Shown here in pieces: positions 53,152-60,329 of a stretch of 64,000 bases of DNA. Each line of letters opens with the position of its first letter. Positions within the stretch are counted from its first letter, which is position 1. The notes under the pieces were generated by a model that did no database searches, had not been told where the DNA came from, and saw only the letters and a list, made by a program, of their open reading frames with translations. The stretch lies in contig NZ_JABFCS010000001.1 in assembly GCF_013087525.1 (NCBI RefSeq), forward strand, positions 3,162,001 through 3,226,000, given 5' to 3'. The stretch comes from Ramlibacter montanisoli (GTDB lineage: Bacteria > Pseudomonadota > Gammaproteobacteria > Burkholderiales > Burkholderiaceae_C). A program made the translations under genes and the position numbers.

Positions 53152-56100
53152 TCACCGGAACAGCCACACGCGCATCAGCGACAGGAGCTGGTCGGTGTTG
53201 ACCGGTTTGGAGATGTAGTCGCTGGCGCCCGCTTCCAGGCATTTCTCGCGGTCGCCCTTCATGGCCTTCGCCGTCAGCGCCAGGATCGGCAGGGTGCGGA
53301 ACGCGGCGTCCTTGCGGATCTCGCGCATGGTCTCGTATCCGTCCATCTCCGGCATCATGATGTCCATCAGCACCATCTCCAGGTCCGGCGTGTTCTTCAG
53401 GATGTCGATCGCCTGGCGGCCGTTGGTGGCGCTGACCACCTCCACCTCGTGGTTCTCCAGCACCGAGGTGAGCGCGAAGATGTTGCGCGCGTCGTCGTCC
53501 ACCACCAGCACCTTGCGCCCGCGCAGCACCTCCGAGGAGTTGTGCAGCCGCTCCAGCATCGCCTGCTTCTCCTGCGGCAGCTGGGTGACGACACGGTGCA
53601 GGAACAGCGCGGTCTCGTCCAGCAGGCGCTCCGGCGACTGCACGTCCTTGAGCACGATGCTCTTGGCCATGGTGTTCAGGCGGCCCTGTTCGTCCGGGCT
53701 CAGGTCCTTGCCGGTGAACACCACCACCGGGACGCTGGAGAGCGCGGCCTGCTCGCGCATCTGCTCCAGCAGCTCGAAGCCGCTCATGTCCGGCAGCCGC
53801 AGGTCCAGAACCACGCAGTCGAAGGGCTGGCGCCTCATCGCCGACAGCGCCGCCTCGCCGCTGCCGGCGGTGGCGATGTCGATGTCGTCGTAGCCCAGGA
53901 GTTCGACCACGGCGTCGCGCTCGATCTCGTTGTCCTCCACCACCAGCAGCCGCTTGGTGCGCGGTACGGTGAATTCCTTGAGGCGTCGAAGGCCGCTTCC
54001 AGGCCCGCGGTGGTCGGTTCCTTGAGCAGGTAGTTGAAGGCGCCGTGCGACAGGCCGTGCTGGCGCTCCTCCTCCATGGTCACGATCTGCACGGGGATGT
54101 GGCGCAGCGCCGGGTCGAGCTTGAGCTGGTTGAGCACCGTCCAGCCCAGCATGTCGGGCAGGAAGATGTCCAGCGAGATCGCCGAGGGCTGGTACTGGCG
54201 CGCCAGCGACAGGCCGATCGCGCCCTTGGTCGCCACCAGCCCCTTGAAGCCCTTGTCGCGCGCCAGCCCCAGCAGGATGCGCGCGTAGTGCGGGTCGTCC
54301 TCGATCACCAGCAGCACCGGGTCGCCCGGCTGGATCTTCTCGCGGTCGTCGGGGATGTGTTCCTCACGCACCATGGGCAGCGTGATCACCGTTGCTTCCT
54401 GCTTCGCCTTGCGGTTGGTGACCGTCGCGGACTCGGGACCGGAGTAGTGCAGCGGCAGGTAGAGCGTGAAGGTGCTGCCCTGCCCCGGCACGCTGTGCAG
54501 CCGGATCTCGCCGCCCAGCAGGTAGGCCAGTTCGCGGCTGATCGCCAGGCCCAGTCCGGTGCCGCCGTACTTGCGCGAGGTGCCGGCGTCGGCCTGCTGG
54601 AAGGCTTCGAAGATCAGGCGCTGCTTCTCGATCGGCACGCCGATGCCGGTGTCTTCCACCGCGAAGGCGACCACGTTCTGCGCCTGGCCCAGGACCGGGT
54701 GGTCCGGGCTCCAGCCGCTGGTGGCCAGGCCCACGCGCACCTCGACATGGCCGTGCGCGGTGAACTTCACCGCGTTGGACAGCAGGTTCTTCAGGATCTG
54801 CTGCAGGCGCTTGGGGTCGCTGTCCATGGTGCGCGGCAGCTGCTCGGCGAACTTCAGCAGCAGCGGCAGGTTCTTCTGCTCCGCCACGTGCCGGAAGTTG
54901 CGGTCCAGGCTCTCGCGCAGGCCGTGGAAGGGGATCTCCTCGATGTCCACCGTCACCGTGCCGGACTCGATCTTCGACAGGTCCAGGATGTCGTTGATCA
55001 GGTTCAGCAGGTCGGAGCCCGAGGAATTGATGTTGCGCGAGAACTCCACCTGCTTGGTGGACAGGTTGCCCGCGCTGTTTTCCGCCAGCTGCTGCGACAA
55101 GATCAGGATGGAGTTCAGCGGCGTGCGCAGCTCGTGCGACATGTTGGCCAGGAATTCCGACTTGTACTTGGAGGTAAGCGCCAGTTCGGACGCCTTCTCC
55201 TCCAGCGCGCGGCGGGCCTGCTCCACTTCCGAGTTCTTGCGTTCCACCTCGGCGTTCTGCTCGGCGAGCAGGCGCGCCTTGTTCTGCAGTTCCTCGTTGG
55301 TCTGCTGCAGCTCGATCTGGCGCGACTGCAGTTCGGCCGTCAGCTGCTGCGACTGCTTGAGCAGGCCTTCGGTCCGCATGGTCGCCTCGATGGTGTTGAA
55401 CACCGCGCCCAGGCCCAGCGCCAGCTGGTCGAGGAAGTTGAGGTTCACCGCCGTGAAGGGCTGCAGCGAAGCGAGCTCGATCACCGCCTTGGTCTGGTTC
55501 TCGTACAGCACCGGCAGCACCACCACGCTCAACTTGCTGGCTTCGCCCAGGCTGGAGGAGATGGTGACGTACTCCGCCGGCACGTCGGCCAGCAGGATGC
55601 GCCGGTTCTGCAGCGCGCATTCGCCGACCAGGCCTTCGCCCAGGCGGATGGTGGGCGACAGCTGCATGCGGTCGGTCTGCGCGTAGGTGGCCAGCACCAG
55701 CAGTTCGCCGTCGGTGCCGTCGGCGATGTTGCTGTGGTAGATGCTGCCCTGGTGCGCGCTGACCAGCGGCGCCAGTTCCGACAGCAGCATCTTGCCCACG
55801 GTGTTCAGGTCGCGCTGGCCCTGCAGCATGCCGGTGAAGCGCGCCAGGTTGGTCTTCAGCCAGTCCTGCTCGCGGTTCGATTCCGTGGTCTCCCGCAGGT
55901 TGGAGATCATGGTGTTGATGTTGTCCTTCAGCTCGGACACTTCGCCCTTGGCGTCCACCTGGATCGAGCGCGTCAGGTCGCCCTTGGTCACGGCCGTCGC
56001 CACTTCCGCGATCGCGCGCACCTGGGTGGTGAGGTTGGCCGCCAGCAGGTTCACGTTGCCGGTCAGGTCCTTCCAGGTGCCGGCCGCGCCGGGCACGTTG

Positions 56101-59100: not shown

Positions 59101-60329
59101 CAGGTCCTTCCAGGTGCCCGCGATGCCCGGCACCTGCGCCTGACCACCGAGCTTGCCTTCGGTACCCACTTCCTTGGCCACGCGCGTCACTTCGGAAGAG
59201 AAGCCGTTCAGCTGGTCCACCATCGTGTTGATGGTTTCCTTCAGCTGCAGGATCTCGCCGCGCACGTCCACCGTGATCTTCTTGGACAGGTCGCCGCGGG
59301 CGATGGCCGTGGCCACGTCCGCGATGTTGCGCACCTGCGCCGTGAGGTTGGACGCCATGAAGTTCACGGAGTCGGTCAGGTCCTTCCAGGTGCCCGCCAC
59401 GCCCGGCACCACGGCCTGGCCGCCGAGACGCCCGTCGGTGCCCACCTCGCGCGCCACGCGCGTCACTTCCGAGGCGAAGGAGCGCAGCTGGTCCACCATG
59501 GTGTTGGTTGCTTCCTTCAACTGCAGGATCTCGCCGCGCACGTCCACCGTGATCTTCTTGGACAGGTCGCCGTTGGCGACCGCGATGGTCACGTCGGCGA
59601 TGTTGCGCACCTGCGCCGTGAGGTTGCCGGCCATCTGGTTCACCGAGTCGGTGAGGTCTTTCCACACGCCCGACACGCCCTTCACCTTGGCCTGGCCGCC
59701 CAGCTTGCCTTCGGTGCCCACTTCGCGCGCCACCCGCGTCACCTCCGAGGTGAACACGGACAGCTGCTCGATCATCGTGTTCACCAGCTTGGCGGAGCGC
59801 AGGAACTCGCCCTTGAGGTGCCGACCGTCCACCTGAAGCTCCATCGACTGGCCCAGGTCGCCCTTGGCCACCGCGCCGATGGTGCGGGCGATGTCGGTCG
59901 TCGGCCGCACCAGGTCGTCGATCAGGGTGTTGAGCGAGTCCACCTGCGCCGCCCAGCTGCCCAGCGCGCCGGGCGCGGAAATCCGTTGCGCCAGGCGCCC
60001 TTCCTTGCCGACGGTGTTGGACACGCGCGCCGCTTCGCTGGTGATGCGGTCGGCGTTGGCAATGGTCTGGTTGAAGGCCTCCGAGATCCGCGCATCGACG
60101 CCGGACCATTCGGCCGGCAGGCGGACGCTGAAGTCCCCCGAGGCGAAGGCCATGAGCGCGGCCAGCACCTGGCGCGAACGCGCCTCGGCCACTTCGGCCG
60201 CAAGGGTGTGGATGGGGGAATCTGGACGGGAGCTGCCGCCTTGGCCGGCCCCGGGGCCTTGGCCGTGTTCGCGCGAGCGGAGGGCTTGGCGGACTTTTTC
60301 TTGGTGGATGCGGTGACAGCCTGGTCCAT
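53152..60329 (-). CDS. Giant soluble hybrid kinase with 16 HAMP-like repeats, GAF domain and three receivers; three frameshifts
   Basis: About 2,392 residues after correction. An Ala/Lys-rich head ([20 protein letters not shown]) is followed by about 16 repeats of 92 residues (about 60-1485), each like [54 protein letters not shown] and [22 protein letters not shown]-type domain, a coiled coil, HisKA ([20 protein letters not shown]), HATPase ([32 protein letters not shown]) and three receivers ([25 protein letters not shown]) follow. No membrane segment. Frame breaks: about 60213-60218 (one C short), 58982-58987 (one G extra), 53975-53985 (one C short). The repeats closely match those of fungal NIK1/OS-1 group III kinases. 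Signal unknown. Confidence 0.9.
55875..60150 (-). repeat. 276-bp coding tandem repeat array (HAMP units)
   Basis: The coding region of the giant kinase repeats every 276 bases for about 16 units. Central units are nearly identical at DNA level (for example GTCAGGTCCTTCCAGGTGCC recurs in unit after unit), while the first and last units diverge. This pattern suggests repeat homogenisation by recombination. Borders are approximate. Confidence 0.9.

Follow-up and report, generated by a model that had tools for sequence, protein, structure and literature searches.

The window analysed here is a stretch of 64,000 nucleotides from the genome of Ramlibacter montanisoli. One of its genes, which encodes a HAMP-array hybrid histidine kinase (A type), extends on the minus strand from an ATG at 60329 to a stop at 53152 (53152..60329), as a first, sequence-only reading had placed it. 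The product starts with an N-terminal HAMP domain (60067..60190, limits approximate), recognized from a HAMP_N3 match below the cut-off together with the relatives and the model. A divergent first unit (59776..60066), spaced 97 residues from the next one, leads into 14 regular units of 92 residues (55911..59775, with unit 1 at 59500-59775 and unit 14 at 55911-56186). The array is followed by a GAF domain (GAF_2, PF13185, 49.2 bits; 55404..55814), a HisKA domain (PF00512; 54960..55163), a HATPase_c domain (PF02518; 54450..54818) and three receivers, all in the same minus-strand orientation. Receivers 1 and 3 (53994..54311 and 53176..53511) were matched by PF00072; receiver 2 (53600..53960, limits approximate) lies just behind the third of the frame jumps described below. 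The 92-residue units and the series of GAF, HisKA, HATPase and three receivers that had been read from the sequence were thus borne out, the latter by Pfam matches to every domain, and the "about 16 units" resolve into 14 regular ones, a divergent one and the further N-terminal HAMP. Judged by eye, the translations show the conserved HisKA histidine as well as the ATP-binding boxes and the aspartates of the receivers. In the window pieces tested, no stretch reaches the hydrophobicity of a membrane helix (top 19-residue Kyte-Doolittle mean, 1.31), in agreement with the soluble protein proposed earlier, and no chemoreceptor signalling domain was matched in them by Pfam at E 0.01, kinase domains being found instead.

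As assembled, the frame of the array kinase gene jumps three times, near 60.2, 58.98 and 53.98 kb, one of the jumps falling inside unit 3, and the length from 60329 to 53152 is not divisible by three. The single chain of about 2,392 residues that had been proposed is therefore not encoded by the assembly as it stands. Twelve same-genus orthologues were fetched (the A-type loci of G002, G004, G010, G016 and G021, with short frames or on short contigs, were left out), and every one is open in a single stop-to-stop frame of 2194-2676 codons. Because all 12 are open, assembly error is likely, and we regard the jumps as likely indels of the assembly.

Directly downstream, on the same strand, lies a gene for a receiver-HisKA-HATPase-receiver protein of 556 amino acids (51474..53144, minus strand), whose ATG comes 7 bases after the array kinase stop codon. 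A further kinase, with the order PAS-PAS-HisKA-HATPase, is encoded just upstream of the array kinase (60446-61951, minus strand); a clear relative of it occurs at L039 alone of the 12 fetched A loci (78% identity), where it is located behind the partner gene. Elsewhere in the window we note a nitrile hydratase beta subunit with both Pfam halves (48598-49686, plus strand) and a short tandem repeat at 62447-62540 (period 21, 4.8 copies, 67% matches).

Tandem Repeats Finder describes the array as 13.7 copies of a period of 276 nucleotides with 82% matches and 0% indels, which is far beyond chance, and Pfam HAMP_2 matches the window array kinase 15 times, once per unit. A predicted model of the array, of low confidence (pLDDT 51), exhibits two connectors between long helices in each unit. 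In CaNik1, where nine HAMPs are described as four 92-residue pairs plus one, each 92-residue repeat is a HAMP pair (PMC3848655). By the helix pattern of the model and the pairing in CaNik1, each array unit most likely holds two HAMPs; the chain would then contain about 31 of these, one at the N-terminus and two in each of 15 units. The number of regular units is 14 in the window gene and in 11 of the 12 orthologues, and 12 in the remaining one (L050).

The 12 arrays with 14 regular units (the window gene and 11 relatives, L050 being left out) were compared position by position. Between species, units that share a position average 96% identity (0.963), compared with 80% for units at different positions (0.795) and likewise 80% for different units inside one gene. 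In 1675 of 1848 comparisons the unit at the same position scored best or shared the best score, where chance would give about one in 14. Four-fold silent sites between the units of the window gene show an identity of 0.69 versus 0.64 expected from codon usage. The position identities and the silent sites thus point neither to homogenisation nor to a recent expansion. The same tendency was seen in seven further sets picked from the tree (Bacteroidota, Caulobacteraceae, Oxalobacteraceae, Nostoc relatives, the B paralogues and two alphaproteobacterial sets), with 92-99% identity at the same position versus 78-86% at different positions. On these sequence comparisons the 14 array positions are old and separately conserved. 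Expansion of the array, whether recent or introduced in assembly, was rejected, since unit number and unit position are common to the relatives. The sequence-only reading had suggested an expanded array; as a recent event this finds no support in the age of the positions or in the silent sites, and arrays of 6 to 13 regular units are common elsewhere among bacteria (named genes, from the best 80 loci listed). A collapsed or expanded assembly, which it had named as a refuting outcome, is unlikely with the same repeat count in 11 of 12 relatives.

Unit spacing was measured in 94 complete genes with a single frame, whose record titles place them in at least seven phyla: 12 of the A type, 15 of the B type, 17 from the order or phylum, and 50 from the best 80 named loci listed. 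The other 30 of these 80 were left out as cut by a contig end, broken in frame or without a kinase; the window gene and its paralogue, with their broken frames, were also left out of the count. The first spacing is 97 residues in 92 of the 94 genes; one of the remaining two has 96 and the other 98. Every later spacing, 861 in total, is exactly 92 residues, and odd values occur solely among the dropped cut or broken loci L186 (65), L189 (83) and L191 (90 and 86). An unbroken helical stack would need just such an exact phase. The number of regular units is 6 (11 genes), 8 (2), 9 (15), 11 (13), 12 (6) or 13 (3) in the 50 named genes from the best 80 listed. Mapped on the tree, unit number takes 23 changes by parsimony over 73 rows, a count given with no shuffle comparison; by sequence, it is nearly constant within clades. 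Three receivers were found in 12 of 12 A genes, 15 of 15 B genes, 9 of 17 from the order or phylum, and 41 of the 50 named genes from the best 80 listed.

A relative of the partner adjoins the array kinase in each of the 12 A loci fetched (blastp, 60-76% identity) and in all 16 same-genus B loci, including that of the present genome (blastp, 40-45% identity over the kinase and the last receiver). Among the 17 order-or-phylum loci a receiver-kinase gene directly follows in 13 and a receiver-first gene in 3 more, the kinase of one of these, L098, being of the HWE rather than the HisKA type. A receiver-kinase directly follows in 30 of the 50 complete named loci from the best 80 listed; of the rest, 18 show none, one has the kinase first and one a receiver alone. 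The script that scored downstream genes misses partners whose stop-to-stop frame starts far upstream, as in four same-genus cases found by blastp. When downstream genes were tested with Pfam, 9 of 10 had a receiver and a kinase domain. We therefore consider the second kinase, judged from its sequence and placement, to be probably the signalling partner of the array kinase.

An adjacent partner is seen in one of eight cyanobacterial rows, and in none of the eight complete Oxalobacteraceae rows, among the best 80 listed. Its rarity in the former and absence in the latter speak against an obligatory partner: an array kinase can do without one next to it. The complete array kinases lacking an adjacent receiver-kinase in the right order are L126, L129, L131, L137, L139, L149 and L169 among the cyanobacteria, and L136, L148, L152, L154, L158, L159, L164 and L168 among the Oxalobacteraceae.

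At E 1e-90 the kinase was matched in 39 of 398 genomes of the phylum sample and in none of the 11 other sampled genomes of its own family. Twenty of the 39 matching regions were fetched, and an array was present in 16. The titles of the best 80 loci listed in the scan of named genomes, many of them metagenome bins, name about 13 phyla. A quick kinase tree was built from 82 of 107 kinase rows, after five short rows had been dropped and the same-genus rows thinned. Here the A type branches with rows from alpha- and gammaproteobacteria. The B type is placed beside one planctomycete, one methylococcal and one same-order row, with Polyangium and a row from the Opitutaceae nearby. L105, a same-order row, sits among the Oxalobacteraceae, which points to a host that probably belongs to the Burkholderiales. 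Holding A and B together was rejected by the AU test (p 0.002, the group having been chosen after the tree was seen). Duplication within the genus as the source of the A and B arrays is disfavoured by their distant places in this quick tree and by the AU result. The genome itself carries a second, distantly related array kinase outside the window (L051, G000:C1:1371397-1376178), with about 11 regular units, a frame that is also broken, and a receiver-kinase partner of its own behind it.

A solved structural relative is PDB 9trk_A, 282 residues of which are 67% identical to the N-terminal part of the window kinase (E 1.2e-113). The N-terminal HAMP, the divergent unit and regular units of 9trk and 9trj align with the window over these 282 residues without a gap. 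Both entries ("histidine kinase, Gcn4p") are HAMP-array fragments fused to Gcn4, and are bacterial by sequence.

The fungal group III kinases (CaNik1, Bos1, TcsC, NIK1/OS-1) are cytoplasmic like the window kinase, and HisKA, HATPase and receiver occur in both; the fungal proteins have no downstream receiver-kinase partner, whereas the window kinase has one. They probably differ from it in the GAF domain as well. CaNik1 shares the 92-residue period of HAMP pairs with the window kinase (PMC3848655), but the fungal kinases are described with five to six repeats and one receiver, compared with 14 plus one and three in the window (PMC3848655, PMC3418262). The window kinase is a poly-HAMP (NIK1-like) kinase in the wide sense, with an array of ~92-residue HAMP units, no membrane segment, and HisKA, HATPase and C-terminal receivers, albeit in split frames. 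It falls outside fungal group III in the strict sense, a class of fungal genes that feed the HOG pathway: its genome is bacterial and of 4.75 Mb, its same-genus relatives are bacterial, and the numbers of repeats and receivers differ.

Bacterial poly-HAMP kinases, namely AskA and AskB of Myxococcus xanthus and Amb07 of Sorangium, have already been called NIK1-like (PMC7643160). According to that account AskA, AskB and AskC correspond to MXAN_0712, MXAN_6735 and MXAN_6734; askC is located directly downstream of askB and encodes another hybrid kinase, which binds ambruticin weakly. AskA, AskB and AskC bind each other in vitro in every pairing, Rec3 of AskA contacts the receiver of AskC, and the responses of M. 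xanthus to glycerol and ambruticin need AskC (PMC7643160). As described, the Ask system resembles the window locus in having a membrane-free poly-HAMP kinase with several receivers and, at askB-askC, a second hybrid kinase gene directly downstream. Ask is reported to control development and respond to ambruticin. Aer2 of Pseudomonas aeruginosa, in which HAMPs without the DExG motif are described as stacking into linear chains (PMC3570549), is likewise a soluble stacked-HAMP chain lacking that motif, and its structure 3vol gives a weak sequence match to the window; unlike the window kinase, Aer2 is a chemoreceptor with PAS and a signalling tip and no kinase domain. The window kinase thus belongs to a described kind, represented by Myxococcus AskA/AskB, PDB 9trk/9trj and fungal CaNik1. 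What is added here is the fixed 92-residue phase, the near-constant unit number in clades, and the receiver-kinase directly behind in many lineages. The proposed bacterial relative of NIK1/OS-1 accordingly stands as to layout (the 92-residue pairs and the NIK1-like label of AskA, AskB and Amb07), and fails as to a recently expanded array.

By sequence and analogy, we think it reasonably probable that this is a cytoplasmic poly-HAMP hybrid kinase working in a phosphorelay with the receiver-kinase encoded directly downstream. We favour such a two-gene relay because of the domain order, the 92-residue phase, the position-specific units and the conserved adjacency, and because of the Ask precedent of askB-askC and of Rec3-AskC binding (PMC7643160). 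Two chains would pair along a straight, stiff rod of about 31 stacked HAMPs. The signal, either a bound protein or a ligand docking on the N-terminal HAMPs, elsewhere on the rod or on the GAF domain, would shift the HAMP register, and this shift would travel along the rod to GAF and HisKA. By default the rod may hold the kinase back, as suggested by CaNik1, in which HAMP deletion is reported to leave Hog1 active without a stimulus (PMC3848655). The phosphoryl group would reach the three receivers and, if the presumed direction is right, the partner's first receiver at its N-terminus; the kinase and C-terminal receiver of the partner would then relay the signal.

A narrower function, that of a bacterial counterpart of the fungal osmosensor whose HAMP array senses osmotic stress and could be a phenylpyrrole target, would fit the same 92-residue HAMP pairs in CaNik1 (PMC3848655), the lack of a membrane segment in both kinases, and the AskC-dependent responses to glycerol and ambruticin in M. 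xanthus (PMC7643160). We consider it rather unlikely, since the accessory parts differ (GAF, three receivers and a partner gene), the Myxococcus system is described as controlling development (PMC7643160), no osmotic gene or signal was tied to the array-kinase locus here, and phenylpyrrole is presented in one account as having no direct action on the fungal kinase (PMC6433957). Still less probable is an array that serves chiefly to set length or as a DNA-bound scaffold, with kinase signalling secondary. AskB binds promoter DNA in vitro (PMC7643160), FrzCD, a cytoplasmic receptor with HAMPs, binds DNA (PMC12077210), and array length is nearly constant within clades; weak SpoIIID-like matches also overlap the array units, as reported for the Ask kinases (PMC7643160). 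However, no stretch of these matches passes on its own and they may reflect a mere shared helix pattern, and the kinase and receiver motifs are conserved and, by eye, intact.

Were the three frame jumps real, the array kinase gene would be a pseudogene and its protein not made in this strain, a reading that could draw on the jumps themselves and on the second array gene of the genome, likewise split into several frames. We hold this to be very doubtful: an assembly of two contigs with a completeness of 90.28% is what is expected of long reads with leftover indels, the catalytic motifs appear intact by eye, the fetched relatives are intact, and breaks in both arrays of one genome are a better fit to sequencing error.

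Taken more broadly, and only tentatively, array kinase and receiver-kinase partner may constitute a widespread, ancient bacterial "Ask-type" module. Its rod would be rigid, of fixed length and fixed phase, with each position under its own constraint, and would transmit conformational change as a calibrated cascade, not as a repeat tract open to adjustment; the type of partner kinase would be exchangeable while the leading receiver is kept, and fungal NIK1 would represent a shortened, partnerless branch. Antifungal compounds act on poly-HAMP kinases or at least require them as a route, and in the conserved receiver-kinase downstream there is now a concrete candidate for a bacterial partner outside Myxococcus. 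The comparison also supplies testable rules: a period fixed to the residue, a unit number near-constant within clades, and a sequence of its own at each position. Contrary to what is expected of an adjustable array, even a strongly repetitive gene can remain stable position by position. The part worth following is this general pattern of fixed phase, ordered units and an adjacent receiver-kinase.
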